Of a stretch of 64,000 nt of DNA, positions 18,206 to 44,028 are shown piece after piece. Every line of letters begins with the position of its first letter. Position 1 is the first letter of the stretch. The notes beneath the pieces are model-generated. The model saw nothing but the letters and a program-made list of their open reading frames with translations. It was not told the origin of the DNA and did not search any database. The DNA is from Limnospira fusiformis SAG 85.79 (GTDB lineage: Bacteria; Cyanobacteriota; Cyanobacteriia; Cyanobacteriales; Microcoleaceae): assembly GCF_012516315.1 (NCBI RefSeq), contig NZ_CP051185.1, forward strand, positions 5,461,363 to 5,525,362, written 5' to 3'. The position numbers and the translations under genes were made by a program.

Positions 18206-18662
18206 AACTTCATAATTATAGCTAATTTTATGTCATCTTCAATCCTGCATAAAATCGACAATTTATCATTATGATATACCTCCCGATATCTACTTATTAA
18301 CCCCTAGCAGTAATACTGATTTCCCTAAGTTTGGCTTGAATAATCGGTGATCCCTATCTACTCACAGAAAATACCTATCTGGTCGGATGGCCAGATATTG
18401 CCCCAAAATCAGTAGACCTGACATAGTATTCAGATCCATCTTATCCTATTTTGATAACAGTTATAATTTCCTGGAAATCGACTGTCTAAAGGCTAATTGA
18501 TGCTTTGGCTACCGCAAAAATTTAATAAAAATTTAACGATGCTTAATATTTATTCATATATCCGGTAAAGGCGATCGCTCCCCCGTCGGTAGAGTCCGTA
18601 GAGTTGGTAGGGTCCGTGATAGCCTGGTCCTAGTCATGGTAAACCCGCGCCCAGCCAGCAGT
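18206..18662. other. Intergenic region, no gene seen
   Basis: This AT-rich 457-bp stretch lies upstream of the GGDEF/EAL gene and downstream of the integrin-like gene. It contains one HIP1 site (about 18572) and no supported frame or RNA. It marks the border between core genes and the modular-protein cluster. Confidence 0.4.
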
Positions 18663-18686
18663 GGGGGCGCAAAATTTTGCGCCCCC
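18663..18686. terminator. Perfect 24-bp palindrome
   Basis: GGGGGCGCAAAA is followed directly by its reverse complement, centred at 18674/18675. It has no T-run on either side. It lies beyond the end of the integrin-like gene and could be a second terminator, an mRNA 3' stabiliser or a protein site. Confidence 0.4.
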
Positions 18687-18720
18687 AGTATGATGAATTA
18701 TTCATGGTTTGGTGAGGTTA

Positions 18721-18767
18721 GGGCGGGTTCCTGTTAATTACAGGGGAGAACATGAGTCAACCCGCCC
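18721..18767 (-). terminator. Two-tier hairpin after the integrin-like gene
   Basis: GGGCGGGTT (18721-18729) pairs with AACCCGCCC (18759-18767), and inside it CCTGT-taatt-ACAGG forms a second perfect hairpin (18730-18744). It lies 32 bp after the stop of the minus-strand gene. There is no T-run, so a role in 3' processing is equally possible. Confidence 0.5.
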
Positions 18768-18798
18768 CTTGATGAGAGGGCGAAGTAATCGTCCTATT

Positions 18799-21700
18799 CT
18801 ACATCATAGAAACACTCAGGTTGTAAGGAGTTTGATTACCCTGACTAAATACCCGGGCTACATAAGTACCAGGTTCTAAGAATTCTCGAATCTCCTCATC
18901 TTGGCTGCCAGGATTTCTCGAACTACCAAGGAGCCTTGTACGGTCATTATTGAGTAACTCGAATAATTCCAGGTTAGCATTAGCCCGGAGACCGTCGAGA
19001 CCCACAGTGACAAAACCAGGTGACTCTAAAGTGAAATTGTAATAGTCGTCAGTGTCAACCCTGCCACCTTCGGTATAGCCAATCAGACCGCGTTGGCTGA
19101 TCGAACCGCCTTCGGTGAGTGGGTCCAGAGGTTGTCCCGGTGGCGTGTCGTCAAGTGAACCTGTAATCGGACTCGCAGCCATATTGATTTCGTAGGGAGT
19201 TCTTGCTGCCCCCCTGGGGAAGACCCGCACAAAATAGTTGCCCGGATCTAAGATTGTTTTGATGTTTTCATCGTTATTTCCCGGTCTGGCAGAACGTTGA
19301 AGGAGATCACGACCGTCGCTACCTATTAACTCCAGGTCGGCGTTAGCCCTCAAGCCCGTCAGGTTAATATCAACGCTACTGCGTTCATTAAGGGTGAACT
19401 GGCGATAGTCGTTAACATCCCGATAACCGTTTTCTGGGAAACCGATCCGGTCTGTGTCCCTGTAGTCCGTCAGCAAACCGATATTGTTAACGTTTCCGGG
19501 GGCTTGGCCATCAGGATCTACGGCTACCCCCAAATCGGCAATCTTCAGGGTGTAGGGACTACGGGCGCTACCTTGGGGCCGAACGGCTACATAATAAGTG
19601 CCGGGGTCTAACTCTTGTTCAATTTTTTCGTCCGCTGTTCCTGGGTTGCGAGATTCAAATATCAGGCTACCAGAATTATCTAGTAATTCCAGATTGATAT
19701 TAGCGCTCAGGCCTTCTAGAGCGATCGCCAGGGATTTGGCTTCGTTGAGCCGGAAGCCATAGTAGTCTACCTGGTCGCGACTGCTACCTGTGCCGAAACC
19801 TACCCTATCACTATTACTGTAATCTCCTGTTAGCACTCCCAAATCATTGAAGAAAGAAGAACCTGGTACAGGACCACCATCTGGGTCTACCGAGTCGGTC
19901 ATCGCCGTAATATCCAGGGTATAGTTGGTTCTGGCATTACCCACGGGAACCACATCCAGATAATAGGTTCCGGCTTTGAGTTCTTGGCTAATCTGTTCTG
20001 CTTCGTTGCCGGGACGGGTTGAGTCAAACAACAAACTACCGTTGGTCTCTTTTAGCTGAATGTCGGCATTTCCTCGCAGTCCGGTTAGGGAAATATCAAC
20101 TTCAGCTTCACTCGCAAGAGTGAACTCATAGCGATCGGTGGTGTTACGAATACCGCTTTCAGCAAAACCAATGCGATCGCTGTTGGTGTAACCCCCTTCT
20201 AGGGAAAGCAGGTTCCCCACATCGAACTCCTGAAGCGCGTCGCTGCTACCAGTATTGATACTTAGTCGGTATTCGCTGCGAGCATTGCCATTGGGGAATA
20301 CTTCCACATAGTAAACACCAGCATCTAAGAAATCGGTAATATTTTCGTTAGCACGACCCCTTTCCTCTGCTGTTTGCAGAATCGTTTTACCATCACCGTC
20401 GTACAAACGCATATTGATATCCTGACGCAAGTTAGTCAAGTTGATATCAACAGAACCATCTTTAGTTAGTTCAAAGCGTACCCAGTCTCGTTCGTCCCGA
20501 CCAGAACGGCCCTGAGTGAAACCTACACTGTTCCGAATGGAAGGGATGTTATCGACCCCTGGTTCAACCTTACCGAAATTGAGAGCCTTTTCGGGAGTGG
20601 CATGGTCAGGAATGAAAACAGTAGCTGCCGTGATACCCAACCGGTAGTTACTCCGGACGTTGCCCACGGGGGTAACTTTTACATAGTAGGTTCCCGCTTC
20701 GAGTCCTTCCAGTTCAATTTTTTCAGCTTGGCGACCTGGGTTTGTACCCCGCGCTACTCGCTCGCCGCCTTCATCTAGAATCTCTACATCAAGGTTCGCT
20801 CTCAGTCGGTCTAGGGTCAAGTTAACATCGCTGTTTACTGGCAAGGTGAAATTGTACCAGTCCTGAGTGTCCCGTCGCCGACCTGTAACGAAACCAACAT
20901 CTCCAGTCTGACTAACAGGGTTAGCTTCAGTAACTGGCCCCAAAGTGATACCAGGTTTGCTGTCGTCGTCTTCGATGGTGATAGGGTTAGCACTCATACC
21001 CAGGCGATAGTCCGTCCTGGCGTTACCTACCGGGAACACCCGCACATAATAATCACCAGGTTCTAAATCCGTGCTAATTTGTTCAGCTTGGCGACCTGGG
21101 TTAGTGGACTGATCGATAATAGTTTCGCCATCTGCGCCTAGGAGTTGGACGTTAGCATTAGCCCGAAGTCCGTCCAGAGTCAGCGATAATTCGCTATTTT
21201 CGGTGATACTAAACTTGAAGAAGTCTTGTGTGTCTCGGCTTATGCCCCGACCAAAGCCAATTCGGTCAACTGCGCTGACTTCTTCTGGTCCGATATTACC
21301 TAGGTTTTCCGCTGTGGCGATCCTGTCTTTGCCTTCTCCGATTATGTCTAAGGCTTCTGCACTTACCCACAAGCGATAGGAAGTGCGATCGCTCCTGCTA
21401 TTGGGAAAAACTCGGATATAGTATTCCCCTGCACCTAAGTTTTCGGTAATCTCTTCCGGGCGACGACCGGGTTCAGTAGAGCGGAATATTACCGTGCTAC
21501 CATCCCCGTCCAAAATCTCAACGTCAGCATTGGCTTGGAGTTGGTCAAGAGTCAGGTTAACCTCGCTATCGTTGCTGATGCTGAACTTATAAAAATCTTG
21601 CGAGTTCCACACACCATCTTCACGATCGCCGATTCTGTCGTTGTTGCTGTATGGCCTAGGTCGTCCGTTGAGGTCGCCAATATTAATTACATCAGGTCCT

Positions 21701-22716
21701 ATTACGGAACCTAGGGTGACATTAACTGTGGTCTCGCCTAAACCCAACACTTCCAACGAAAGTGTATCGTCTTTGGCGTGGGGATTTTCAGTACCGAGTT
21801 CTACTGTGAAGGTGCGACTTTCCCCGTCTTTAACACCCTTATGTTGCACCGGGTTGATGCTTTGAACATAGCCATACTCATCACTCCTGGCTACCATTGT
21901 CAAGTCGCTTAATATGGTCTCTAAGCCACTGGTAACTACGTTGACTAGGTTGGAGCTATCGGACCTTAAAGTTTCTACCGTACCAAATCCCAATTGATCA
22001 ACCAGTTCTCTATATACCGGTACAACATCCCTGGTGACCGCGAAAATAGGAATCACTCCCGTCTCTTCCAAAGCATTCCTGACTTGAGCAACGCTGGGAT
22101 AGTCTTCTCCCGTACCTGCTGGTCTACCATCAAGAACTGTATCGCCATTATTGGCAGTGGTTATGCCTGCCGCTCCTCCCGCTCCTGCCTCATGATAGCG
22201 AGCATCTGTAGAAAGAACCACAATCCGCCGAGAATTATTGCGGTAGCCAACCTCTTCTTCCCGGAGAGCCACATGCATCAACCCCTCAAGTTGAGCTTCT
22301 GGAGCGTCCCCGCCAAAGCCAATTTCCAGGCGACCTAGTGCGTCCTGGAAATCAGGCAAAGAGTCCGTTAGCGGCAGGTGGGTTTCGTATACATAATCAG
22401 TGCTACCACCAAAAGGCCAAATGGGTTTGTCGATGAAGGAAGCCAAACCAAATTTAGTGTCTGGTTGGATGTCTTGCACCTCTTTAACTATTCGGGGAGC
22501 TAAACGCTGCATAACCGGCAGGTCATCCCAAAATGAACCCGAAAGATCCGTTAGGAAAACTAAATCTATTGCTGTGGTTTCGGCACTGTCACTGGGTACT
22601 GTTGCCGTAATGTCAAAACTGATGTTATCTCCAGGTACAATATTCACATCTACTACGCCTGGATTTAACGCTCCCTCGCCACGTACTGTATTGGTGATTG
22701 TGCTTTTCCCGCTCAT
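18799..22716 (-). CDS. Integrin beta I-like domain protein with eight PPC repeats
   Basis: 1305 residues. Residues 48-280 form a von Willebrand A/beta-integrin I-like domain. The metal site is complete: DLSGS (Asp57, Ser59, Ser61), Asp64-Asp65 in the ADMIDAS position, Glu140 in GGDAPEAQLEG, and Asp171 in VVLSTDARYH. DYPSV...PIFAVTRDVVPVY and SDSSNLVNVV follow the integrin-beta order almost block for block. A ~75-residue beta-rich segment follows, then eight ~118-residue PPC (bacterial pre-peptidase C-terminal) repeats with the pattern RIGF...RD..D.Y.F...L..L.ANA...L..G...AGTYYV.V.P...TPY. No Sec signal peptide is visible. It lacks the N-domain of its neighbours. Its PPC repeats 2-5 resemble the 44029 gene. 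Likely an exported adhesive or matrix protein (inference). Confidence 0.9.
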   Translation of the reverse strand: MSGKSTITNTVRGEGALNPGVVDVNIVPGDNISFDITATVPSDSAETTAIDLVFLTDLSGSFWDDLPVMQRLAPRIVKEVQDIQPDTKFGLASFIDKPIWPFGGSTDYVYETHLPLTDSLPDFQDALGRLEIGFGGDAPEAQLEGLMHVALREEEVGYRNNSRRIVVLSTDARYHEAGAGGAAGITTANNGDTVLDGRPAGTGEDYPSVAQVRNALEETGVIPIFAVTRDVVPVYRELVDQLGFGTVETLRSDSSNLVNVVTSGLETILSDLTMVARSDEYGYVQSINPVQHKGVKDGESRTFTVELGTENPHAKDDTLSLEVLGLGETTVNVTLGSVIGPDVINIGDLNGRPRPYSNNDRIGDREDGVWNSQDFYKFSISNDSEVNLTLDQLQANADVEILDGDGSTVIFRSTEPGRRPEEITENLGAGEYYIRVFPNSRSDRTSYRLWVSAEALDIIGEGKDRIATAENLGNIGPEEVSAVDRIGFGRGISRDTQDFFKFSITENSELSLTLDGLRANANVQLLGADGETIIDQSTNPGRQAEQISTDLEPGDYYVRVFPVGNARTDYRLGMSANPITIEDDDSKPGITLGPVTEANPVSQTGDVGFVTGRRRDTQDWYNFTLPVNSDVNLTLDRLRANLDVEILDEGGERVARGTNPGRQAEKIELEGLEAGTYYVKVTPVGNVRSNYRLGITAATVFIPDHATPEKALNFGKVEPGVDNIPSIRNSVGFTQGRSGRDERDWVRFELTKDGSVDINLTNLRQDINMRLYDGDGKTILQTAEERGRANENITDFLDAGVYYVEVFPNGNARSEYRLSINTGSSDALQEFDVGNLLSLEGGYTNSDRIGFAESGIRNTTDRYEFTLASEAEVDISLTGLRGNADIQLKETNGSLLFDSTRPGNEAEQISQELKAGTYYLDVVPVGNARTNYTLDITAMTDSVDPDGGPVPGSSFFNDLGVLTGDYSNSDRVGFGTGSSRDQVDYYGFRLNEAKSLAIALEGLSANINLELLDNSGSLIFESRNPGTADEKIEQELDPGTYYVAVRPQGSARSPYTLKIADLGVAVDPDGQAPGNVNNIGLLTDYRDTDRIGFPENGYRDVNDYRQFTLNERSSVDINLTGLRANADLELIGSDGRDLLQRSARPGNNDENIKTILDPGNYFVRVFPRGAARTPYEINMAASPITGSLDDTPPGQPLDPLTEGGSISQRGLIGYTEGGRVDTDDYYNFTLESPGFVTVGLDGLRANANLELFELLNNDRTRLLGSSRNPGSQDEEIREFLEPGTYVARVFSQGNQTPYNLSVSMM

Positions 22717-22781
22717 GGTTTTCTGTCCTTAGCTAATAAGTTGTGAGCATACAAGGTTTTTCGCTGTTATCTGCCATCCTA

Positions 22782-22832
22782 CCTCCTATAAAACCCACGG
22801 GAAAAACTGCGGTTTTTGGGGTTTTATGGAGG
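22782..22832 (-). terminator. Nested inverted repeat between two PPC genes
   Basis: CCTCCTATAAAACCC (from 22782) pairs with GGGTTTTATGGAGG (to 22832), and the loop holds AAAAACTGCGGTTTTT, itself a hairpin. It follows the stop of the upstream minus-strand gene at 22857. Confidence 0.55.
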
Positions 22833-22856
22833 TTTGTATATGTCTGATTCACCGTC

Positions 22857-25418
22857 TCATCTGAACATAAATTCCAGATTATAAGGGGTTTGAGCCATGC
22901 CTACCGGATAAACCCGCAAGTAATAATCTCCCGCATCTAAATTTTGGGTGATTATGTCTGTGTTATTGCCACGTTGATTAGAACTATCAATCATCCCGCC
23001 ACTACTATTCAATAGCTCTAAATCGGCATTTTGCCTCATGCCGTCCAGCATAATAGTAAGACTTTGGGGCTCGTTGAGGGTAAATCTGTAGTAGTCGTTA
23101 ACGTCGCGAACTCCGTCTTCCATAAAGCCAATTCGGTCTCTGGGAGTTCGGAAATCACTATTCAAGCTACCCAAGTCTGTGGCAGTTTCCAGAGTGCCGT
23201 CGGGGTCTTCTCCGGTAATTGGATCGACGGTCGGTCTTTCTTCCGGTTTCGGCTCTGTAGGTACGGCATTCATTTTCAGGAAATAGTTGGTTTGCGCTGC
23301 ACCTGCTGGGAAGACTTGCACTTTGTAGTCCCCAGCTTCCAATTCCCCGCTGAGAAATTCCGACTCACGGTCTGGGTTGAAACCAGTCATAACCGGCCTA
23401 CCGCTGCTGTCAAACACAATAACATTAGCATTCATCCTCAGTTCGTCTAGGGTGAGGGTAAACCGACTATCAACATCTAAGCTAAAGTTGTATTCGTCGC
23501 TGTTGTTACGAACACCCCCGTCAGTAAAGCCGATGCTATCTGAGATTTTGAACTCCCCATTTCTCAGGCTATTTAAAGAACCGACTTCTGTGATTTCTAC
23601 ACCACCACCTACAACTTCAGAATTTATTGCCAGTCGATACCGAGTCTCGGCATTACCTACCGGTACCACTCGCAGGTGGTAATCACCAGACTCTAGGACT
23701 TCGGCGATGTTTTCTGGTGTACGTCCGCGCTCCTCAGAAACTGCAATGGGTCGGCCTCTTCTGGAGTCAGGGTCGAAAAAGCCTTGATATAGTTCTAGGT
23801 TGATGTTTTGATTGAATTGGTCTAGGGTGACGTTAATATCCCTGGACTCATTCAGGGTAAAGTTATAAACATCTAACTCGTTGCGAACTCCGCTCCCTGT
23901 CTGACCCACATTGTCAAAATTGCTGTAGGGCGCACCCAAAGCATTTATGTCTATGATATCCACCGGGGAAATAGTTTCCCCCGCGCTGAGACTCAGCCGA
24001 TAGTCAGTATTACCACTACCAGTGGCAAATACTCTGACATAATAATCTCCCGGGTCGAAGATGTCGTTAATTTTTCTGGCGTTCCTACCATCCCTTTCTG
24101 ACTGATGAATACGTTCACCGTTGCTGTCGTAAATCTCGACATTTGCCACATTAACTCGCAGTTCGTCAACGACCAAATCCACGTTTTTCTCAGCACTGAG
24201 GCTGAATTTGAACCAGTCCTCTTGGTCTCGGAAGCGATCGCCTATTAATAAGCCTACATTGTTTTTCTCATTAATCGGTCTGACTCCCAACTCCCCTAAG
24301 TCTTTGGCAGTTGCTAAAGTAGGATAGTCGCTTTGATTTGTCTGAGCATCTAGTTCCAATCGGTAGTCGGTTCTGTTAGTACCTTGAGCCCCTACCACTA
24401 AGGCATAATCTCCTACCTCTAGGAAATTGCTGATGGTTCTGGGTCGATTAGCCGGAGCTGTAACCCTTTCCAACAGAGAGCCTAGTTGTTTTGGTCTACT
24501 GGGATCATACTCGTGTAAAAGCAGATTGGCTCCCCGGTTGAGCTGATCCATTTGAGCATAAAATGAAGCATCCTCGCTCAGGTTAAAGGTGTAGAAGTCC
24601 CTTTGGTTGCGCTGACTTCCTGTGCCAAAACCGATACGATCAGCAGTGACAAACGGTTGAACTTTGCCGACTAAATCCCCAACTCGAGTACCTGGTAATT
24701 CTTCCGGTGGCAGCACTTCGTTGGCAGTCAACTCTAGCCGATACGGAGTTCTGGCAGCTCCACGAGGAAATACCCGCACCACATAATCGCCGGCTTTAAA
24801 AATACCATTAATGCTGTCTTCCTGTCGCCCAGGATTCATCGATTGAAAGAGAATCGTTTCCCTATCTTCATCTAAGATTTGAATGTCGGCATTCTGTCTC
24901 AGTTGGTCTAGGTTGATGCTGACATCGCTATCCTTATCTAAGCTAAAGCTGAAAAAATCTTCAACGTTCCGTACACGACCTTCAGTAAAACCAATGCGAT
25001 CGTTTATTACTACTGGTTCTGACAGACTGTTAAGAACTCCCAGGTTTTGACCTGGATCTACTACGGTTCTCGGTTCTGCACTTAGGCTTAACGAATATTC
25101 CGTTTGGGCTGGCCCTACCGCCATAACTCGGACATAATAATCACCGGGCTCTAAGTTGGCGTTAATGTTTTCTGCTCGCCTACCCGGGTTGTTAGACTGG
25201 AACATCACCGAACCGTCGCTATCTAACAGTTGGACGTTAGCATTAGCATTTAAATCATCCAGGGTGAGGTTAAACTCGCTTTCCTCACGGATGGTAAATT
25301 TGTAGAAGTCGTTGAGTTCTCGCTGGCCATCCTGTCTAAAGCCAATGCGATCGCGAATCTCAATTTGTTCAGTTATGACACCTTTATTTAGGGCATCTTC
25401 TATCGTGTCGTAAGCCAT
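22857..25418 (-). CDS. Seven-repeat PPC-domain protein without the N-terminal EEFGH domain
   Basis: From the ATG at 25418 (MAYDTIEDALNKGVI) it has 853 residues made of seven PPC repeats of ~115-130 residues. An in-frame codon at 25520 would add 34 non-conserved residues, so 25418 is preferred; a GGGAG lies about 15 nt before it. Repeats 1-5 are near-identical to those inside the gene at 29730, where the same MAYDTIEDAL follows directly after the shared N-domain. The protein is acidic and repetitive without signal peptide or anchor. PPC domains usually sit at the C-terminus of secreted proteins. Export route and ligand are unknown. Confidence 0.85.
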   Translation of the reverse strand: MAYDTIEDALNKGVITEQIEIRDRIGFRQDGQRELNDFYKFTIREESEFNLTLDDLNANANVQLLDSDGSVMFQSNNPGRRAENINANLEPGDYYVRVMAVGPAQTEYSLSLSAEPRTVVDPGQNLGVLNSLSEPVVINDRIGFTEGRVRNVEDFFSFSLDKDSDVSINLDQLRQNADIQILDEDRETILFQSMNPGRQEDSINGIFKAGDYVVRVFPRGAARTPYRLELTANEVLPPEELPGTRVGDLVGKVQPFVTADRIGFGTGSQRNQRDFYTFNLSEDASFYAQMDQLNRGANLLLHEYDPSRPKQLGSLLERVTAPANRPRTISNFLEVGDYALVVGAQGTNRTDYRLELDAQTNQSDYPTLATAKDLGELGVRPINEKNNVGLLIGDRFRDQEDWFKFSLSAEKNVDLVVDELRVNVANVEIYDSNGERIHQSERDGRNARKINDIFDPGDYYVRVFATGSGNTDYRLSLSAGETISPVDIIDINALGAPYSNFDNVGQTGSGVRNELDVYNFTLNESRDINVTLDQFNQNINLELYQGFFDPDSRRGRPIAVSEERGRTPENIAEVLESGDYHLRVVPVGNAETRYRLAINSEVVGGGVEITEVGSLNSLRNGEFKISDSIGFTDGGVRNNSDEYNFSLDVDSRFTLTLDELRMNANVIVFDSSGRPVMTGFNPDRESEFLSGELEAGDYKVQVFPAGAAQTNYFLKMNAVPTEPKPEERPTVDPITGEDPDGTLETATDLGSLNSDFRTPRDRIGFMEDGVRDVNDYYRFTLNEPQSLTIMLDGMRQNADLELLNSSGGMIDSSNQRGNNTDIITQNLDAGDYYLRVYPVGMAQTPYNLEFMFR

Positions 25419-25644
25419 AATATTTTCTGAATTCTCCCTAATGTTGACAATAAACCCCCCGTGGCTCCACTGCGCTTGGGGGCCAGACTGGGCGGCACAA
25501 TATTGAATTTTGGGAACCACTAAAACCCACAGTCATGACCCCATAAGGCGGGGGAGCAACTGCGTCTTTATTTTCGTAGAGAATAGGGCTAATACTTCTA
25601 TGTATTACAAAGGGAGTGCTAGGACATTCTCTCTCGATATCCTT

Positions 25645-25672
25645 ATCGTAACACCACCATCAGAAATGTCAA
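25645..25672 (-). promoter_or_regulatory. Promoter candidate for the 22857 gene
   Basis: Read on the minus strand, TTGACA (25667-25672) and TACGAT (25645-25650) are separated by 16 bp, about 230 nt before the start. It is weaker than the promoters of the other family members. Confidence 0.45.
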
Positions 25673-25985
25673 CTCTTTTTTATAAAGATTTTGTAAAGAT
25701 TTTCTCACAAGCTAATTTTTAGCCCGCCATCATCACTAGCTTCACCATCTCTAAATGTGTAACCGGCTTTTTTAGAACTAATATTTCAATTTGTCTGATG
25801 GAAAATTTAGTGATATCACTACTCCCAATACCCCCAAACTACCACCGGTCAAGGGATGAGAGGGAATCATACATTAGTCGCTACTTGGTTGTTTACAAAA
25901 AGTTACAATAAATTAGCAGTACCAGATATTTCCCCACCGGGTTTGGGTATCTGTAGCATCACCACCAAAAATCTGATATTTCCCC

Positions 25986-26060
25986 TTGACAAATCTGCTG
26001 ACTTGACTTACCATTAGAGAATGGGAATCCGTGCCGCCCTATATATAGGGGTTTTCACCC
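25986..26060 (+). repeat. Intergenic cassette: antisense-oriented promoter-like boxes and palindrome (1 copy)
   Basis: On the plus strand, TTGACA (25986-25991), 17 bp, then TACCAT (26009-26014), followed by the CCATT/AATGG inverted repeat and the perfect palindrome CCCTATATATAGGG (26037-26050) with GTTTT after it. The same block recurs in nearly every spacer of the cluster, always pointing against the genes. The rest of 25673-25985 holds no recognised feature. After 26060, a G/C-rich hairpin region (26061-26100) may terminate the 26108 gene. Confidence 0.75.
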
Positions 26061-26107
26061 CCCACCCCATTTCTAGGGTGGTGGTGAGTAGGTGGGTGGA
26101 AAAGCAA

Positions 26108-29100
26108 CTAAATTAAGTTAATACTTAATCTGTATTCAGTGCGAGCCGCGAGGTGGGGAAATACACGGACATAGTAGGTTCCCGGTTCAAGGTTTCGTTG
26201 GGTGATAATTTCCCGCTGAGTACCAGGATTTCTGGATTGATCAATCCTCTCCCCTGTACTACCCAAAAATTCCAGGTTAGCATTTTCAAATAGTTCATCT
26301 AAGATAATTCGGACAGTCCCTTCACGATTGAGGTTAAAGCGGTAATAGTCCTCGGTATTGCGATCGCCTGCTTCGGTAAAACCAATTTCGTCATTGATCA
26401 CAATGGGTTCTCCGGTGAGTCTACCCAGGTTGACCGCAGGAGACGAGCCATCGTCATTGATAATAGTTCCGGTAGCTTGTCGCCGTCCTAATTGGGCATT
26501 TTGAGGTCTACTCAGGTTGACGGTAAAGGTTTCATCGGGTTCTATTTCGGTATCTCCAAACACGGGAACATCAATAAATTGGCGGGTTTGACCGGGGCGA
26601 AATATCAGCCTTCCTGTAGTGCGTCGATAGTCTTCCCCAGCGGTAGCCGTCCCGTCAGCCGTAGCATAATTAACCACTACCCTTTCAGGGCTAGGGCTAT
26701 CTAAGGTTACCAAAAAACGAGCATTAGTCTGACCGCGATCGCCTTCTGTGATTTCCGTATCTCTGATAGAGATTTGGGGGAAATCATCATTGATAATAGT
26801 TCCGATAGCACGTCGCCTTCCTAATTCCGCATTTTGAGGGTTACTGAGGTTGACGGTAAAGGTTTCATCAGGTTCGACTTTAGTATCCCCAAACACGGGA
26901 ACATCAATAAATTGGCGGGTTTGACCGGGGCGAAATACCAGCCTTCCGCTGGTGCGTCGATAGTCTCGGTCTCTGACAGTGGCTGTACCGTCAGCGGTAG
27001 CATAATTAACCACTACCCTCTCCGGGCTAGGATTATCTAATGTGACCACAAAACGAGCATTCGTCTGACCGCGATCGCCTTCTTTTACCTGAGTGTCTGC
27101 GATCGTAATTTGGGGGAAATCATCATTGATAATAGTTCCGGTAGCACGTCGCCTTGCTAATTCCGCATTTTGAGGTCTACTCAGGTTGACGGTAAAGGTT
27201 TCATCAGGTTCGACTTTAGTATCCCCAAACACGGGAACATTAATGACTTGGCGGGTTTGACCGGGTTGAAATACCAGCCTTCCGGTGGTGCGTTGATAGT
27301 CTCGGTCTCTGAGCGTAGCTGTACCGTCAGCGGTAGCATAGTTAACCACTACCCTCTGACTGCTAGGATTATCTAATGTGACGACAAAACGAGCATTAGT
27401 CTGACCGCGATCGCCTTCTTTTACCTGGGTGTCTGCGATCGTAATTTGGGGTAAATCCTCATCCTCATCAACAATTAACTTGCTGATAAAGGCATCCCAT
27501 TCGCCGCCACTATTGGTTTGTCCGCCTAGGTTGCCCGAAGTCTCCCCCGCCACATAAATAGAGCCATCACTACCCGTCGTCAGGGCATAAGCCACATCAT
27601 CCTCACTGCTTCCCAGTAGGCGCGTCCAGTCCCTAATGCCATCAGGCTGGTACTTGCTGATAAAGGCATCCCATTCGCCACCACTATTGGTTTGTCTATC
27701 TAGGTTGCCTGAAGTCCAGCCCCCCAAATAAATCGACCCATCCCTACCGGTAGTCAAACCAAAAACCCCTTCATTCTCAAGGGTTCCCAACAGGCGCGTC
27801 CAATCTTTACTGCCATCAGGCTGGTACTTGGTAATAAAGGCATCGAAGCCACCACTATTGGCGTGTGCATCTAAGTTGCCTTCAGTATAGCCAGCCACAT
27901 AAATAGAGCCATCGCTACCGGTGGTCAGGGCACGAGCTACATCACTCCCACTGGTTCCCAACAGGCGAGTCCAGGCTTTAGTGCCATTAGGCTCGTACTT
28001 AGCGATAAAGGCATCCCTGCTACCACTATTGATTTGTCCATCTAAGTTGCCTTCAGTATAGCCAGCCACATAAATCGACCCATCACTACCGGTGGTCAGG
28101 GCATGAGCCTCGTCACTCCCACTGCTTCCCAGCAGGCGCGTCCAGACTTTAGTATCATCAGGGCGGTACTTAGCGATAAAGGCATCCCTGCTACCACTAT
28201 GGGTTTGTCCATCTAAGTTGCCCTCAGTATAGCCAGCCACATAAATAGAGCCATCACTACCGGTAGTCAGGGCATGAGCTACATCATTCTCACTGCTTCC
28301 CAGCAGGCGCGTCCAATTTTTAGTGCCATTGGGCTGGTACTGAGTGACAAAGGCATCCCAGTTACCACCATTAGTTTGTCCATCTACGAACCTCCAAGTC
28401 GGGCCCGCCACATAAATCGACCCATCACTACCGGTGGTCAGGGCATGAGCCTCGTCCCAACTACTGGTTCCCAACAGGCGCGTCCAGTCTTTAGTACCAT
28501 CAGGCTGATACTTGGTGATAAAGGCATCTCGCTGACCATTATTGGTTTGTCCATCTAGCTTGCCCTCAGTTATACCCGCCACATAAATGGACCCATCGCT
28601 ACCGGTGGTCAGAGCCCACGCCCGGTCAGTCTCACTGGTTCCCAACAGGTCTGTCCAGGCGAACTCTGGCGGCGCGGACATCTGTACTGCTACCGGTTCT
28701 CCTTCTACCCAGATGAAACCCCAATCATTCTGATTTCTTAACCCGGTGATATCTGCTTCTGTCAAGGCTTCCCCATTCACCAGGCGCATAAATAACTCAC
28801 CCTCATCTCCTGGGGAGTCGATTTCGTTTAACTGAGAATCCAGATAATGCCCAAATTCCTCGGTTATCACATCCACCAGTTTCTCACTGTGAATTATGGC
28901 ATCCGATAAATACACCGTACCCGTCAGGGAATCAAAAGCGCCATCCGCACCATTCATGGCTCTGGCGGAAAGAACTTTCAGATGTGGTGTTTCTCCCTGA
29001 GTCAAAGCCTCAATAATAGTTGCCCCTAATTCCACATCCGTAGATGCACCGAAAGCGGTTTGTAAATCCCCCTGAAAATTCGCGGAGGCGACAAACTCTG

Positions 29101-29260
29101 TTAATTGTTGGTTAACCTGAGTTAATGCCGCCTCGATTTGGGCTGCTGCTGTCAGTGGTTCGACGGACACATCACCGCTGAATCCCAATGGGGGTAGGGG
29201 ATTCGGATAATCCGATGGTTCGGGCATTATGGCCACTAATATTTCTCTGGTATTTTCCAT
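26108..29260 (-). CDS. Modular protein: EEFGH N-domain, seven-blade SBBP propeller, three Calx-beta, PPC
   Basis: 1050 residues. Residues 1-194 are the family N-domain, with VITEEFGHYLD (EEFGH 134-138) and DSPGDEGELF. Seven SBBP-type repeats of ~57 residues follow (about 200-605), each with WTRLLGTS...ALTTGSDGSIYVAG...DAFITKYQPDGTK. Three Calx-beta domains (about 605-940) have KEGDRGQTNARFVVTLD...NYATADGTAT...GDTKVEPDETFTVNL. A PPC domain ends in TYYVRVFPHLAARTEYRL. EEFGH resembles a zincin HExxH whose first His is Glu, so proteolysis is unlikely or altered (inference). There is no Sec signal. AGGTGAAATATT precedes the start and a strong promoter lies 79 nt upstream. Blades 5-7 are near-identical to part of the pseudogene at 50191. 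Confidence 0.92.
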   Translation of the reverse strand: MENTREILVAIMPEPSDYPNPLPPLGFSGDVSVEPLTAAAQIEAALTQVNQQLTEFVASANFQGDLQTAFGASTDVELGATIIEALTQGETPHLKVLSARAMNGADGAFDSLTGTVYLSDAIIHSEKLVDVITEEFGHYLDSQLNEIDSPGDEGELFMRLVNGEALTEADITGLRNQNDWGFIWVEGEPVAVQMSAPPEFAWTDLLGTSETDRAWALTTGSDGSIYVAGITEGKLDGQTNNGQRDAFITKYQPDGTKDWTRLLGTSSWDEAHALTTGSDGSIYVAGPTWRFVDGQTNGGNWDAFVTQYQPNGTKNWTRLLGSSENDVAHALTTGSDGSIYVAGYTEGNLDGQTHSGSRDAFIAKYRPDDTKVWTRLLGSSGSDEAHALTTGSDGSIYVAGYTEGNLDGQINSGSRDAFIAKYEPNGTKAWTRLLGTSGSDVARALTTGSDGSIYVAGYTEGNLDAHANSGGFDAFITKYQPDGSKDWTRLLGTLENEGVFGLTTGRDGSIYLGGWTSGNLDRQTNSGGEWDAFISKYQPDGIRDWTRLLGSSEDDVAYALTTGSDGSIYVAGETSGNLGGQTNSGGEWDAFISKLIVDEDEDLPQITIADTQVKEGDRGQTNARFVVTLDNPSSQRVVVNYATADGTATLRDRDYQRTTGRLVFQPGQTRQVINVPVFGDTKVEPDETFTVNLSRPQNAELARRRATGTIINDDFPQITIADTQVKEGDRGQTNARFVVTLDNPSPERVVVNYATADGTATVRDRDYRRTSGRLVFRPGQTRQFIDVPVFGDTKVEPDETFTVNLSNPQNAELGRRRAIGTIINDDFPQISIRDTEITEGDRGQTNARFLVTLDSPSPERVVVNYATADGTATAGEDYRRTTGRLIFRPGQTRQFIDVPVFGDTEIEPDETFTVNLSRPQNAQLGRRQATGTIINDDGSSPAVNLGRLTGEPIVINDEIGFTEAGDRNTEDYYRFNLNREGTVRIILDELFENANLEFLGSTGERIDQSRNPGTQREIITQRNLEPGTYYVRVFPHLAARTEYRLSINLI

Positions 29261-29338
29261 AATATTTCACCTAGTAGATGGGCTGACATCGCCAACCTAT
29301 CAAATAGTATCTTCCCTGACATTCCCCCCACCTGTACT

Positions 29339-29367
29339 ATTCTATTCTCCCTCACAGATGATGTCAA
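29339..29367 (-). promoter_or_regulatory. Sigma70-type promoter of the 26108 gene
   Basis: On the minus strand TTGACA (29362-29367), 17 bp, TAGAAT (29339-29344). The flanking TTGACATCATCTGTGAG is conserved in the equivalent position before most paralogues. Confidence 0.75.
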
Positions 29368-29383
29368 CCCCTACAGCTTGAAA

Positions 29384-29660
29384 GCGATCGCACCTCAAAA
29401 ATCACGGTTTTCTCACAGCAAAAAAACCCACTTTTACCCCTTGACAAATTCCCCGACTTGACTTACCATTAGAAAATGGGAATCTGTGCCGCCCTATATA
29501 TAAGGTTTTTCACCTCCCACCTCAAAGCGATCGCACCTCAAAAATCACGGTTTTTTCACAGCCAAAAAACCCACTTTTCCCCCTTGACAAATCCCCCGAC
29601 TTGACTTACCATTAGAGAATGGGAATCTGTGCCGCCCTATATATAGGGGTTTTCACCCCC
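29384..29660 (+). repeat. Two tandem ~143-bp intergenic cassettes
   Basis: Copies start at the HIP1 sites 29384 and 29527 and run through ATCACGGTTTT, AAAAAACCCACTTTT, TTGACA-N17-TACCAT (plus strand; second copy TTGACA at 29584) and CCCTATATATAGGG. In the first copy the palindrome is imperfect (CCCTATATATAAGG). Confidence 0.85.
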
Positions 29661-29729
29661 CACCGCCATTTCTGGGAAGGGGTTGTTGGTGAGGAGGTGA
29701 GGTTAAACACCGCACCCCACATCATTTAA

Positions 29730-32700
29730 CTAAACCAAGTCAATACTCAATCTGTATTCAGTGCGTGCAGCCAGGTGGGGAAATACCCGCACATAATAAG
29801 TTCCGGGTTCAAGTCTTCTAGCGGTGATAGTTTCGGGGTTTTTACCTGGATTATTAGACTGGGATATCAACTCACCATCACTACCCAACAATTGCAGGTT
29901 AGCATCTTTAAATAGATCATCCAGGTCAATTCGGACAGTCCCTTCACGATTGAGGATAAAGCGGTAATAGTCGTCGGTATTGCGATCGCCTCCTACTACA
30001 TAGCCAATGCGGTCATTCCTGACAATTTCTTCAGTGAGTCTACCCAGGTTTACTGCATTAGGGAAGATATCATTATCGGGTGGTTCAGGTCTGGGGTTAT
30101 TATTCCCCCCTTGGAAATCATCATTCAGAATAGTTCCGATAGCACGTCGCCTTCCTAATTCGGCATTTTGAGGTCTAGTCAGGTTGACGGTAAAGGTTTC
30201 ATCAGGTTCGACTTTAGTATCCCCAAACACCGGAACATTAATAAATTGGCGAGTTTGACCGGGTTGAAATACCAGCCTTCCGGTGGTGCGTTGATAGTCT
30301 CGGTCTCTGACCGTAGCTGTACCGTCAGCGGTAGCATAATTAACTGTGACCCTCTCCGGGCTAGGATTATCTAATGTGACCACAAAACGAGCATTAGTCT
30401 GACCGCGATCGCCTTCTTTTACCTGAGTGTCTGCGATCGTAATTTTGGGTAAATCCTCATTATTCATTGCATTTATTGCCAGTCGATACCGAGTCTCGGC
30501 ATTACCTACCGGTACCACTCGCAGGTGGTAATTACCAGACTCTAGGACTTCGGCGATGTTTTCTGGTGTATGTCCGCGCTCCTCAGAAACTGCAATGGGT
30601 CGGCCTCTTCTGGAGTCAGGGTCGAAAAAGCCTTGATATAGTTCTAGGTTGATGTTTTGATTGAATTGGTCTAGGGTGACGTTAATACCCCTGGACTCAT
30701 TCAGGGTAAAGTTATAAACATCTAACTCGTTGCGAACTCCGCTCTCTGTCTGACCTACATTGTCAAACTTGCTGTAGGACGCACCCAAAGCACCTATGTT
30801 TAGGATATCCACCGGGGAAATAGTTTCCCCCGCGCTGAGACTCAGCCGATAGTCAGTATTACCACTACCAGTGGCAAATACTCTGACATAATAATCTCCC
30901 GGGTCGAAGATGTCGCTAATTGTTCTGGCGTTCGTACCATCCCTTTTTGACTGATGAATACGTTGACCCTTGCTGTCGTAAATCTCGACATTAGCCACAC
31001 TAACTCGCAGGTTGTCAACGACCAAATCCACGTTTTTCTCAGCACTGAGGCTGAATTTGAACCAGTCCTCTTGGTCTCGGAAGCGATCGCCTATTAATAA
31101 CCCTACATTGTTTGTCTCATTAATCGGTCTGACTCCCAACTGCCCTAAGTCTTTGGCAGTTGCTAAAGTAGGATAGTCGCTTTGATTTGTCTGAGCATCT
31201 AGTTCCAATCGGTAGCCGGTTCTGTTAGCACCTTGAGCCCCTACCACTAACGCATAATCTCCTACCTCTAGGAAATTGCTGATGGTTCTGGGTCGATTAC
31301 CCGGAGCTGTAACCCTTTCCAACAGAGAGCCTAGTTGTTTTGGTCTACTGGGATTATACTCGTGTAAAAACAGATTGGCTCCCCCGTTGAGCTGATCCAT
31401 TTGAGCATAAAATGAAGCATCCTCGCTCAGGTTAAAGGTGTAGAAGTCCCTTTGGTTGCGCTGACTTCCTATGCCAAAACCGATACTATCAACAATGACA
31501 AACGGTTCTTCTTTGCCGATTAAATCCCCAACTCGAGCACCTGGTAATTCTTCCGGTCGGTGCGCTTCGTTGGCAGTCAACTCTAGCCGATAGTCAGTTC
31601 TGGCAGCGCCCTGAGGAAATACCCGCACCACATAATCGCCGGCTTTCAAAATACCATTAATGTTGTCTTCGACTCGCCCAGGATTCATCGATTGAAAGAG
31701 AATCGTTTCCCTATCTGCATCTAAGAGTTGAATGTTGGCATTCTGTCTCAGTTGGTCTAGGGTGATGCTGACATCGCTATCCTTATCTAAGCTAAAGCTG
31801 AAAAAATCTTCAACGTTCCGTACACTACCAGTAGCAAAACCAATGCGATCGTTTATTACTACTGGTTTGGACAGACTGTTAAGAACTCCCAGGTTTTGAC
31901 CTAGATCTACGGTTCTCGGTTCTGCACTTAGGCTTAACGAATATTCCGTTTGGGCTGGCCCTACCGCCATAACTCGGACATAATAATCACCGGGATCTAA
32001 GTTGGCGTTAATGTTTTCTGCTCGCCTACCCGGGTTGTTAGACAGGAAAATCACCGAACCCCAGTTATCTAACAGTTGGACGTTAGCATTAGCATTTAAA
32101 TCATCCAGGGTGAGGTTAAACTCGCTTTCCTCACGGATGGTAAATTTGTAGAAGTCGTTGAGTTCTCGCTGGCCATCCTGTCTAAAGCCAATGCGATCGC
32201 GAATCTCGATTTGTTCAGTTATGACACCTTTATTTAGGGCATCTTCTATCGTGTCGTAAGCCATCTGTACTGCTACCGGTTCTCCTTCTACCCAGATGAA
32301 ACCCCAATCATTCTGATTTCTTAACCCGGTGATATCAGCTTCTGTCAACGCTTCCCCATTCACTAACCGCATAAATAACTCACCCTCATCTCCTGGGGAG
32401 TCGATTTCGTTTAATTGGGAGTCTATATAATGCCCAAATTCCTCCGTTATCACATCCACCAGTTTCTCACTGTGAATTATCGCATCCGATAAATACACCG
32501 TACCCGTCACCGAGTCAAAAGCGCCATCCGCACCATTCATCGATGTAGCGGAAAGCACCATCATCTCTGGTGTTTCTCCCTGACTCAAAGCCTCAATAAT
32601 AGTTGCTCCTAATTCCACATCCGTATATGCACCGAAAGCGGTTTGTAAATCCCCCTGAAAATTCGCGGAGGCGACAAACTCAGTTAATTGTTGGTTAACC

Positions 32701-32843
32701 TGAGTTAATGCCGCCTCGATTTGGGCTGCTGCTGTCAGTGGTTCGACGGACACATCACCGCTGAATCCCAATGGGGGTAGGGGATTCGGATAATCCGATG
32801 GTTCCGGCGCGATCGCCACTAATATTTCCCTGGTATTTTCCAT
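29730..32843 (-). CDS. Modular protein: EEFGH N-domain, five PPC repeats, Calx-beta, PPC
   Basis: 1037 residues. The family N-domain occupies 1-193. Residue 194 is the Met of MAYDTIEDAL, exactly the start of the free-standing gene at 22857, and the next ~590 residues match PPC repeats 1-5 of that gene. One Calx-beta domain follows (KITIADTQVKEGDRG), then a Pro/Asn-rich linker (GGNNNPRPEPPDN) and the C-terminal PPC domain. The gene is thus a chimera of three modules also found separately in the cluster. It has its own promoter and AGGTGAAATATT leader. There is no signal peptide. Probably an exported calcium-binding surface or matrix protein (inference). Confidence 0.92.
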   Translation of the reverse strand: MENTREILVAIAPEPSDYPNPLPPLGFSGDVSVEPLTAAAQIEAALTQVNQQLTEFVASANFQGDLQTAFGAYTDVELGATIIEALSQGETPEMMVLSATSMNGADGAFDSVTGTVYLSDAIIHSEKLVDVITEEFGHYIDSQLNEIDSPGDEGELFMRLVNGEALTEADITGLRNQNDWGFIWVEGEPVAVQMAYDTIEDALNKGVITEQIEIRDRIGFRQDGQRELNDFYKFTIREESEFNLTLDDLNANANVQLLDNWGSVIFLSNNPGRRAENINANLDPGDYYVRVMAVGPAQTEYSLSLSAEPRTVDLGQNLGVLNSLSKPVVINDRIGFATGSVRNVEDFFSFSLDKDSDVSITLDQLRQNANIQLLDADRETILFQSMNPGRVEDNINGILKAGDYVVRVFPQGAARTDYRLELTANEAHRPEELPGARVGDLIGKEEPFVIVDSIGFGIGSQRNQRDFYTFNLSEDASFYAQMDQLNGGANLFLHEYNPSRPKQLGSLLERVTAPGNRPRTISNFLEVGDYALVVGAQGANRTGYRLELDAQTNQSDYPTLATAKDLGQLGVRPINETNNVGLLIGDRFRDQEDWFKFSLSAEKNVDLVVDNLRVSVANVEIYDSKGQRIHQSKRDGTNARTISDIFDPGDYYVRVFATGSGNTDYRLSLSAGETISPVDILNIGALGASYSKFDNVGQTESGVRNELDVYNFTLNESRGINVTLDQFNQNINLELYQGFFDPDSRRGRPIAVSEERGHTPENIAEVLESGNYHLRVVPVGNAETRYRLAINAMNNEDLPKITIADTQVKEGDRGQTNARFVVTLDNPSPERVTVNYATADGTATVRDRDYQRTTGRLVFQPGQTRQFINVPVFGDTKVEPDETFTVNLTRPQNAELGRRRAIGTILNDDFQGGNNNPRPEPPDNDIFPNAVNLGRLTEEIVRNDRIGYVVGGDRNTDDYYRFILNREGTVRIDLDDLFKDANLQLLGSDGELISQSNNPGKNPETITARRLEPGTYYVRVFPHLAARTEYRLSIDLV

Positions 32844-32929
32844 AATATTTCACCTGGTTTATTCTCATACATCGCAGAGCGCTGAGATGCGAGAGGCTGT
32901 AGGTAACGTAACATCTTCCCACCATGACC

Positions 32930-32958
32930 ATTCTATTCTCCCTCACAGATGATGTCAA
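32930..32958 (-). promoter_or_regulatory. Sigma70-type promoter of the 29730 gene
   Basis: On the minus strand TTGACA (32953-32958), 17 bp, TAGAAT (32930-32935), 87 nt before the ATG. Confidence 0.75.
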
Positions 32959-32975
32959 CCCCCCACCCCTTCCAA

Positions 32976-33108
32976 GCGATCGCACCTCAAAAAGCACCGT
33001 TTTTTCACAGCAAAAAAACCCACTTTTACCCCTTGACAAATCCCCCGACTTGACTTACCATTAAAGAATGGTAATCCGTGCCGCCCTATATATAGGGGTT
33101 TTCACCCC
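32976..33108 (+). repeat. Intergenic cassette, 1 copy
   Basis: HIP1 at 32976, AAAAAACCCACTTTT, plus-strand TTGACA-N17-TACCAT, the CCATT/AATGG repeat (here AATGGT) and CCCTATATATAGGG. It is followed by ACCCC...GGGGT-type hairpins before the stop of the 33159 gene. Confidence 0.85.
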
Positions 33109-33158
33109 TCACCCCCCTATTGCTAGGGTTGGTGGTGAGTAGGTGGGTGGAAAAGCGA

Positions 33159-36100
33159 CTAAATTAAGTTAAGACTTAACCTGTATTCAGTGCGTGCCGC
33201 CAGGTGGGGAAATACCTTGACATAATAAGTTCCCGGTTCTAGTCTTCGTTCGGTGATAATTTCTGGCTCAATATCAGGGTTTCTGGATTGATTAATTATG
33301 TCCCCTGTACTACCCAACAATTGCAGGTTAGCATTGTCCATGAGTTCATCTAAGATAATTCGGACAGTCCCTTCACGATTGAGGAGAAAGCGGTAATAGT
33401 CCTCGGTATTGCGATCGCCTCCTGGTGCAAAACCAATGTGGTCATTCCTGACAATTTGTCCGGTGAGTCTACCCAGGTTTACTGCATTAGGGAAGATATT
33501 ATTATCGGGTGGTTTAGGTTGTTGGTTATTATTCTCCACCTCGGAATCATCATTCAGAATAGTTCCGATAGCACGTCGCCTTCCTAATTCGGCATTTTGA
33601 GGGTTACTGAGGTTGACGGTAAAGGTTTCATCAGGTTCGACTTTAGTATCCCCAAACACGGGAACATCAATAAATTGGCGAGTTTGACCGGGTTGAAATA
33701 CCAGCCTTCCCGTCGTGCGTCGATAGTCTCGGTCTCTGACCGTAGCTGTACCGTCAGCGGTAGCATAATTAACTGTTACTCTCTCCGGGCTAGGATTATC
33801 TAATGTGACCACAAAACGAGCATTAGTCTGACCGCGATCGCCTTCTGTGATTTCCGTATCTCTGATAGAGATTTGGGGGAAATCATCATTCAGAATAGTT
33901 CCGGTAGCACGTCGCCTTCCTAATTCGGCATTTTGAGGGTTACTGAGGTTGACGGTAAAGGTTTCATCAGGTTCGACTTTAGTATCCCCAAACACGGGAA
34001 CATTAATAAATTGGCGAGTTTGACCGGGTTGAAATACCAGCCTTCCCGTGGTGCGTCGATAGTCTCGGTCTCTGACCGTCGCTGTACCGTCAGCGGTAGC
34101 ATAATTAACTGTTACTCTCTCCGGGCTAGGATTATCTAATGTGACGACAAAACGAGCATTAGTCTGACCGCGATCGCCTTCTTTTACCTGAGTGTCTGCG
34201 ATCGTAATTTGGGGCACTATAATATCATCATTCAGAATAGTTCCGGTAGCACGTCGCCTTCCTAATTCGGCATTTTGAGGGTTACTGAGGTTGACGGTAA
34301 AGGTTTCATCAGGTTCGACTTTAGTATCCCCAAACACGGGAACATTAATGACTTGGCGAGTTTGACCGGGTTGAAATATCAGCCTTCCCGTGGTGCGTCG
34401 ATAGTCTCGGTCTCTGACCGTAGCTGTACCGTCAGCGGTAGCATAATTAACTGTTACTCTCTCCGGGCTAGGATTATCTAATGTGACGACAAAACGAGCA
34501 TTAGTCTGACCGCGATCGCCTTCTTTTAGCTGGGTGTCTGCGATCGTAATTTGGGGGAAATCCTCATCCTCCTCATCAACAATTAACTTGGTGATAAAGG
34601 CATCCCTGCCACCACTATTGGTTTGTCCACCTAGGTTGCCCTCAGTCCCACCCGCCACATAAATAGACCCATCCCTACCGGTGGTCAGGGCTTCAGCCCA
34701 GTCATACCCACTGGTTCCCAACAGGCGCGTCCAGGTTTTAGTACCATCAGGCTGAAACCTGCTGATAAAGGCATCCTCGTTACCACTATTGGTTTGTCCA
34801 TCTAGGTCGCCATAAATATAGCCCGCCACATAAATAGACCCATCACTACCGGTGGTCAGGGCACGAGCCTCGCCCCAACCCCTGGTTCCCAATAGGCGCG
34901 TCCAGTCTTTAGTGCCATTGGGCTGATACTTGGTAATAAAGGCATCACCGCCACCACTATTGGTTTGTCCATCTAGGTTGCCCTGAGTCCAGCCCGCCAC
35001 ATAAATCGACCCATCACTACCGGTGGTCAGGGTCTGACCCCCGTCCCTCACCGAGGTTCCCAACAGGCGCGTCCAGTCTTTAGTGCCATTGGGCTGAAAC
35101 CTGGTGATAAAGGCATCACTGCTACCACTATTGGTTTGTCCATCTAGGTCGCCCTGAGTCCTACCCGCCACATAAATCGACCCATCCCTACCGGTGGTCA
35201 GGGCATTAGCCTCGTCCCAACCCCTGGTTCCCAAGAGGCGCGTCCAGGCTTTAGTGCCATTGGGCTGAAACCTGGTGATAAAGGCATCACTGCCACCACT
35301 ATTTCTTTGTCCATCTAGGTTGCCCCAAGTAGAGCCCGCCACATAAATCGACCCATCACTACCGGTAGTCAGGGCATAAGCCTTGTCACTCCTACTGGTT
35401 CCCAACAGGCGCGTCCAGTCTTTAGTACCATCAGGGTGATACTTGGTGATAAAGGCATCCACCCAACCGCTATTTCTTTGTCCGTCTAGGTTGCCATTAG
35501 TATAGCCCGCCACATAAATCGACCCATCCCTACCGGTGGTCAGGGCATGAGCCTCGTCCCAACTACTGGTTCCCAACAGGCGCGTCCAGGCTTTAGTACC
35601 ATCAGGCTGATACTTGGTGATAAAGGCATCACCGCTACCATTATTTCTTTGTCCATCTAGGTTGCCTGAAGTATAGCCCGCCACATAAATGGACCCATCC
35701 CTACCGGTAGTCAGGGCACGAGCCTCGTCCCTCTCACCACTGCCCAACAGGTCTGTCCAGGCGAACTCTGGCGGCGCGGACATCTGTACTGCTACCGGTT
35801 CTCCTTCTACCCAGATGAAACCCCAATCATCTTTATTCCTTAACCCGGTGATATCTGCTTCTGTCAAGGCTTCCCCATTCACCAGGCGCATAAATAACTC
35901 ACCCTCATCTCCTGGGGAGTCGATTTCGTTTAACTGAGAATCCAGATAATGCCCAAATTCCTCCGTTATCACATCCACCAGTTTCTCACTGTGAATTATG
36001 GCATCCGATAAATACACCGTACCCGTCAGAGAGTCAAAAGCGCCATCCGCACCATTCATGGCTCTGGCGGAAAGAACTTTCAGATGTGGTGTTTCTCCCT

Positions 36101-36362: not shown

Positions 36363-36448
36363 AATATTTCACCTAGTTTATTCTCATACATCGCAGAGCG
36401 CTGAGATGCGAGAGGCTGTAGGTAACGTAACATCTTCCCACCATGACC

Positions 36449-36477
36449 ATTCTATGGTCGCTCACAGATGATGTCAA
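36449..36477 (-). promoter_or_regulatory. Sigma70-type promoter of the 33159 gene
   Basis: On the minus strand TTGACA (36472-36477), 17 bp, TAGAAT (36449-36454). ACCATAGAATGGT makes the -10 region palindromic in this copy. Confidence 0.75.
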
Positions 36478-36494
36478 CCCCCCACCCCTTCCAA

Positions 36495-36768
36495 GCGATC
36501 GCACCTCAAAAAGCACGGTTTTTTCACAGCCAAAAAACCCACTTTTACCCCTTGACAAATCCCCCAACTTGACTTACCATTAAAGAATGGAAATCCGTGC
36601 CGCCCTATATATAGGGTTTTTCACCCCCCACCTCAAAGCGATCGCCAAAAATCACGGTTTTCTGACAGCAAAAAAACCCACTTTTACCCCTTGACAAATC
36701 CCCCAACTTGACTTACCATTAGAGAATGGAAATCCGTGCCGCCCTATATATAGGGGTTTTCACCCCTC
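36495..36768 (+). repeat. Two tandem ~143-bp intergenic cassettes
   Basis: Copies start at HIP1 sites 36495 and 36638. Both carry plus-strand TTGACA-N17-TACCAT and CCCTATATATAGGG. The second lacks the ACCTC after HIP1. Confidence 0.85.
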
Positions 36769-36839
36769 ACCCCCATTTCTGGGAAGGGGTGGTGGTGAGT
36801 AGGTGGGGTTAAAAAATCACCCCAACCCACATTATTTAA

Positions 36840-39491: not shown

Positions 39492-39577
39492 AATATTTCA
39501 CCTGGTTTATTCTCATACATCGCAGAGCGCTGAGATGCGAGAGGCTGTAGGTAACGTAACATCTTCCCACCATGACC

Positions 39578-39606
39578 ATTCTATTCTCGCTCACAGATGA
39601 TGTCAA
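39578..39606 (-). promoter_or_regulatory. Sigma70-type promoter of the 36840 gene
   Basis: On the minus strand TTGACA (39601-39606), 17 bp, TAGAAT (39578-39583), 87 nt before the ATG. Confidence 0.75.
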
Positions 39607-39623
39607 CCCCCCACCCCTTCCAA

Positions 39624-39897: not shown

Positions 39898-39945
39898 ACC
39901 CCCCTATTGCTAGGGTTGGTGGTGAGTAGGTGGGTGGAAAAGCGA

Positions 39946-43515: not shown

Positions 43516-43594
43516 AATATTTCACCTAGTAGATGAGCGGACATCGCCAACCTATCAAATATAGTATCTGGACTCACATTTCCCCACCATGACC

Positions 43595-43623: not shown

Positions 43624-43642
43624 CCCCCACCACCCTCTCAAG

Positions 43643-44022: not shown

Positions 44023-44028
44023 CTCTTC

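Follow-up and report, generated by a model that had tools for sequence, protein, structure and literature searches.

An integrin-type betaI-in-hybrid headpiece predicted at the tip of a PPC-repeat protein in the cyanobacterium Limnospira fusiformis

Limnospira fusiformis SAG 85.79 is a filamentous cyanobacterium of Microcoleaceae type. Within a 64,000-nucleotide stretch of its chromosome (the window; contig NZ_CP051185.1, positions 5,461,363 to 5,525,362), a gene on the reverse strand encodes a protein whose first 338 residues are predicted to fold like the headpiece of an animal integrin beta chain. In animal integrins, the betaI domain is an insertion within the hybrid domain. Profile searches and a structural model make it almost certain that the bacterial protein has an integrin-type betaI plus hybrid fold, the hybrid domain of the model being built from residues 1-45 and 271-338. 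We read the protein as a solitary bacterial adhesin whose betaI-in-hybrid headpiece is the tip of a stalk of eight PPC beta-sandwich domains, and we assign this reading a probability of about 0.7. A check of the open reading frame and its translation found it intact. Its parts, in window positions, are:

18799..22716, reverse strand: gene for the integrin-beta-like stalked protein (1305 amino acids, no cysteine)
22582..22716, reverse strand: predicted N-terminal half of the hybrid domain, residues 1-45 (strands 6-11, 21-26, 31-39)
21907..22581, reverse strand: betaI (I-like) domain, residues 46-270 (Pfam Integrin_beta PF00362, E 1.2e-42)
21703..21906, reverse strand: predicted C-terminal half of the hybrid domain, residues 271-338 (strands 272-278, 284-288, 300-308, 317-323, 327-335)
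18844..21606, reverse strand: stalk, residues 371-1291 (eight PPC domains by sequence, spaced by about 121 residues)

What separates this head from a generic VWA domain? In a Pfam search of the protein, Integrin_beta (PF00362, cut-off 24.8 bits) matched residues 46-270 with 146.8 bits, while the generic VWA profile reached 18.9 bits (E 0.0019), below its cut-off. Profile searches over the complete 6.42-Mb host genome placed PF00362 at the same position, and none of 14 control genomes contained an Integrin_beta match. When the protein was compared with PDB sequences by phmmer, all 60 listed matches were integrin beta or integrin beta-2-like chains (E from 1e-32). Pairwise alignment with human beta-3, whose reference sequence was verified as 100% identical to that in the PDB, covers residues 46-331 at 28% identity and extends past the betaI domain. 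A sequence-only reading of the window had proposed an integrin-beta I-like rather than a generic VWA domain from a series of conserved motif blocks. All of these blocks are present, D57, S59, S61, D64, D65, E140 and D171 are numbered correctly, and the difference of about 128 bits between the two profiles bears the proposal out.

The structural model extends this likeness to the flanks. With 45 bacterial sequences as input, AlphaFold2 (AF2) modeled residues 1-338 with a mean predicted local distance difference test score (pLDDT) of 94.5 and a predicted template modeling score (pTM) of 0.90, placing three strands before the betaI fold and five after it. All 50 listed Foldseek matches to the model are integrin beta chains (best E 1.3e-35). 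VIA superposition matched 326 residues to beta-3 58-432 (Z 38.0, 2.7 Å) and 323 to beta-7 (Z 37.6, 2.4 Å); over the human beta headpieces as a whole, about 325 residues superpose at Z about 38 and 2.4-2.8 Å, and the start of the bacterial protein is the equivalent of beta-3 residue 55-58. The fit to the open alphaVbeta3 structure 6avu is poorer (5.7 Å), which suggests that the model is nearer to the closed headpiece. When DNA from 84,980 species was scanned, 103 relatives were confirmed and 80 of them kept; a profile of the C-terminal hybrid half, built on cyanobacterial sequences, scored 27.8-99.8 bits in the window protein and 20 of these loci and at most 0.4 in the other 60. The sequence-only reading had singled out residues 40-290 for a profile search. 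That region is real, but its flanks had been overlooked, since the model, its superposition and the profiles mark both hybrid halves as integrin-like too. The reading had also asked for a structure prediction, and the model is indeed that of an integrin beta headpiece, with the residues of the ADMIDAS (adjacent to the metal ion-dependent adhesion site, MIDAS) in place and the specificity-determining loop (SDL) present but short.

The metal-site residues lie in the betaI domain as follows:

22522..22548, reverse strand: DLSGSFWDD, residues 57-65 (MIDAS D57/S59/S61, ADMIDAS D64/D65)
22429..22431, reverse strand: D96, aligned with D158 of beta-3, a ligand of the synergistic metal-binding site (SyMBS); the shortened SDL comes next
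22297..22299, reverse strand: E140, aligned with the MIDAS/SyMBS glutamate E220 of beta-3, in GGDAPE
22204..22206, reverse strand: D171, aligned with the MIDAS aspartate D251 of beta-3, in STDARYH

Conservation of these sites was read from an alignment of 45 bacterial sequences from three phyla. The MIDAS residues D57, S61, E140 and D171 are invariant and S59 is serine or threonine; at the ADMIDAS, D65 never varies, and the D64 position holds aspartate in 37 sequences and asparagine in eight. Two SyMBS residues, D96 and D137, are likewise invariant, but the set is incomplete: the N215 equivalent is glycine in all 45 (G135 in the window protein). The earlier description of the head as nearly complete therefore holds for the MIDAS, where all five ligands are kept, and for the ADMIDAS with its aspartate pair, but not for the short SDL or the missing SyMBS ligand. 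In animal integrins, R261 of beta-3 enters the alpha propeller. This docking arginine is replaced by G181 in the window protein and mostly by alanine in its relatives, and the SDL is about 18 residues shorter than that of human beta-3, with neither a disulfide loop nor a cysteine. The change of N215 to glycine and the losses of R261 and of the SDL disulfide loop are constant or nearly constant among the bacterial heads.

How widespread is such a head? PF00362 matched 17 of 386 cyanobacterial genomes, spread across the phylum, the four weakest matches (E 3e-4 to 6e-4) probably being other proteins. In the host's own family 16 of 62 genomes matched, and the only other species of its genus had no match. 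The relatives kept from the DNA scan come from cyanobacteria, alpha-, beta- and gammaproteobacteria and Myxococcota. An even draw of 398 Pseudomonadota gave a single PF00362 match, in the centre genome itself, which marks the domain as rare in that group. Among the 20 loci, cyanobacterial and alphaproteobacterial, that share the hybrid domain with the window protein are seven alphaproteobacterial or proteobacterial ones.

The relatives carry their heads in adhesin-like surroundings, among them a signal peptide with PEP-CTERM, cadherin-like, Calx-beta and RTX segments. Loci L033 and L037 represent the minimal form, a head with a signal peptide and PEP-CTERM; the head of L031 is anchored by Calx-beta, SdrD-B and PPC domains, and the hybrid-type heads of L045 and L072 by RTX repeats. 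Because the reuse of a modular head on varied anchors is typical of secreted adhesins, we infer a role in adhesion, and this is the main argument for it. By eye, L036:2139-5747 has Calx-beta-like repeats on one side of its betaI-hybrid head and, on the other, a segment that contains the lipase-like motif GHSLGSL, and L049:8057-12937 has a betaI domain within an apparent filamentous-haemagglutinin-type repeat protein.

A quick tree joins the window sequence and that of Trichodesmium as a pair (support 98 by the Shimodaira-Hasegawa-like approximate likelihood ratio test, SH-aLRT). Each of the 21 hybrid-type heads falls, along with two further sequences, in a 23-row clade with support 96; the human sequences lie outside it on a long branch. 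In a careful tree, the approximately unbiased (AU) test rejected neither a clade of the hybrid-type bacteria (p-AU 0.25) nor one that joins them with human beta-1, -3 and -7 (p-AU 0.31). Since neither is rejected, the bacterial and human proteins may have inherited the betaI-in-hybrid arrangement from a common ancestor; the joint clade may be real, being compatible with the AU test and not demonstrated by it.

How might such an adhesin work? A folded betaI-hybrid head is predicted with high confidence, and the eight PPC domains behind it, recognized from sequence (252.5 bits in Pfam), would keep it away from the cell. By analogy with integrin biochemistry, a Mg2+ ion at the MIDAS would be completed by an acidic residue of the ligand, and a Ca2+ ion at the ADMIDAS would tune the MIDAS. 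The ligand might sit on a neighbouring filament, in the sheath or on other cells. A pull on the stalk would act on the hybrid domain and hence on ligand affinity. From the interface features that are absent, the head would work without an alpha subunit: docking features are missing, and three cyanobacterial genomes with betaI-hybrid-PEP-CTERM heads contain no match to the FG-GAP profile PF01839. Metal-dependent binding at the surface or outside the cell is fairly probable; that the hybrid domain has retained its allosteric role is a tentative and rather doubtful proposal.

Several observations weigh against a secreted adhesin of this kind. The window protein, its Trichodesmium relative and the neighbouring proteins with the MENTREIL N-terminus all lack an evident signal peptide, no exporter gene adjoins 18799-22716, and all matches in the genome to a type I export adaptor profile fall below the cut-off. 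The sister species is viable without the locus. Metal regulation may also differ from that of integrins, because a glycine takes the place of the SyMBS asparagine in every one of the 45 sequences. As for other export routes, TIGR04183, the sorting profile of the type IX secretion system, matches four stretches of the protein; the best, 758-815, overlaps the PPC domain at 740-808, and these matches are probably cross-matches to the PPC beta-sandwich. A search for SprA gave zero matches, even in the control genomes, and so does not count against this route.

Could the protein lie at the surface and yet not be an adhesin? Its head might instead serve as a scaffold, or bind a different secreted protein from the cluster. 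In keeping with this, the gene sits among repeat proteins whose PPC segments resemble the protein's own stalk, with an identity as high as 65% in one neighbour. The MIDAS ligands are nevertheless kept across three phyla, which points to a conserved metal-dependent contact, whoever the partner may be, and we consider this explanation unlikely.

A further alternative is that the protein pairs, as the beta half of a bacterial heterodimer, with an alpha subunit, which would be an FG-GAP propeller protein such as that encoded at 55403-57016. An FG-GAP_3/FG-GAP protein does belong to the same cluster, and an integrin-alpha-type propeller and a betaI domain are united in one chain in proteobacteria. 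FG-GAP cage motifs lie upstream of betaI in the same polypeptide at about 20 proteobacterial loci (among them L040, L043, L046, L055, L060, L062, L065, L069, L071, L075, L077, L078, L089 and L109), and all 15 aligned chains match both FG-GAP (PF01839) and Integrin_beta in Pfam and carry RTX repeats. In one example, L075:6638-12829, the propeller matches only integrin alpha chains among PDB sequences. L046 encodes a 1168-residue single-chain propeller-RTX-betaI protein; an AF2 model of its propeller alone (pLDDT 88.8, pTM 0.91) fits integrin alpha propellers over 383 residues with Z 34.7 and 2.8 Å. By these profile and structure matches, single bacterial chains contain both halves of the integrin head, an arrangement for which we found no description in the literature searched. 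The FG-GAP protein at 55403-57016, in contrast, matches none of the PDB sequences at E 0.01. Neither R261 nor the SDL disulfide loop is present in the window protein, and the betaI domains of the propeller-betaI chains also do without R261. Together with the three head-bearing genomes that have no PF01839 match, the missing PDB match leaves the neighbour unsupported as an alpha subunit, and we regard a heterodimer as quite improbable.

Recent acquisition from an animal or other eukaryote would fit the patchy spread, with few cyanobacterial genomes positive and the sister species negative, but the window sequence lies with Trichodesmium inside a bacterial clade that has the human sequences outside it, and the bacterial members reach from cyanobacteria to Myxococcota; such an origin is very improbable. 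An ancient transfer, in either direction, may have occurred (compare the p-AU of 0.31 for the joint clade). That the integrin likeness is a motif coincidence in an ordinary bacterial VWA domain has next to no chance of being right: betaI domains do belong to the VWA superfamily, and VWA_4 and VWA_2 match weakly, but the profile scores, the Foldseek matches, the superposition and the presence of a hybrid domain refute it.

The proposed adhesin is encoded at one end of a run of repeat genes on the same strand, within a larger block:

18564..63193, no strand: accessory locus holding the gene and its neighbours (44.6 kb; 209 bp in its place in sister species G393)
22857..57016, reverse strand: same-strand repeat proteins (PPC, Calx-beta, SBBP, RTX, FG-GAP_3; most share the MENTREIL... 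N-terminus)

In G393 the left flank is matched as far as window position 18563 and the right flank from 63194 onward (L124). By this comparison, the 44.6-kb locus is an accessory block, gained in the host or lost in the sister species. Its G+C content (0.468) resembles that of the left flank (0.463), and neither an integrase nor a tRNA was seen in the window. Between 26108 and 53635 (reverse strand) lies a tandem family with a near-identical N-terminus, MENTREILSAI..., and exchanged C-terminal repeats; the N-terminus includes TEEFGHYLD, which resembles a degenerate metallopeptidase motif. Several members of the cluster are split into short open reading frames at 50191-53635 and 57928-60005 (reverse strand), which suggests decaying copies. 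Also inside the block, at 60227-62935 (forward strand), lies a sulfotransferase plus GT41 glycosyltransferase gene, where the G+C content is 36%.

How does the window protein compare with systems already described? Integrin-beta-like proteins of cyanobacteria are in print (PMC2651865, 2009; PMC3192720, 2011, citing a 2009 study), so the existence of the protein is not a discovery. The sequence-only reading had mentioned such a precedent in Trichodesmium, and an integrin-beta-like T. erythraeum protein is indeed reported (PMC3192720); a table in PMC2651865 enters it as gi 113475558. We infer that our T. erythraeum locus L030 encodes this protein. Its betaI-in-hybrid head is the same, with 62% identity over residues 4-334, but two cadherin-like domains and one PPC follow it where the window protein has eight PPC domains. 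The Dictyostelium Sib proteins (Pfam PF24909, vWA_SIBA-E) likewise have an integrin-beta-like head. PF24909 exceeds its cut-off of 27.0 bits in the heads of L030, L033, L037 and L072, with up to 63.5 bits; the window protein, at 26.6 bits, narrowly misses it. Sib proteins carry a transmembrane domain (PMC2651865), of which no counterpart is evident in the window protein. The other half of the integrin head, the seven-bladed propeller, was described in bacteria by Chouhan et al. (PMC3192720); the window protein has no such part, and only the proteobacterial chains described above combine it with betaI. In the literature searched, mostly non-subscription papers, we found no description of the eight-PPC architecture, an explicit hybrid domain, the alphaproteobacterial spread or the constant losses.

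With animal integrin beta chains (beta-1, -2, -3, -6, -7 and -8) the window protein has in common betaI-in-hybrid, MIDAS, ADMIDAS and a fold of about 325 residues. Unlike them, it has a short SDL, replacements at N215 and R261, no cysteine and no alpha partner in sight, and Pfam found no PSI domain, I-EGF repeats, beta tail, transmembrane or cytoplasmic segment in its 1305 residues. Because several defining features that we looked for are missing, it should not be classed as an integrin beta subunit, and it plausibly works like an integrin head all the same.

Animals rely on integrins as their central adhesion receptors, and how integrins arose is a matter of debate. It is a speculative and on balance unlikely idea that the betaI-hybrid lever head, acting alone, and the single-chain form, with its propeller and betaI domain paired inside the chain, are bacterial adhesin modules that predate integrins and were later adopted by animals. 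A bacterial head that has the betaI-in-hybrid lever, and has neither alpha subunit, disulfides nor membrane parts, would reveal which features are old, and would allow MIDAS/ADMIDAS allostery to be modelled in a single chain free of cysteines. The proteobacterial chains that join an alpha-type propeller to a betaI domain would make the first meeting of the two integrin halves directly testable. The distribution of the bacterial heads, the lever domain that they contain and their apparent ability to act without a partner chain would make the origin of integrins a question open to test.

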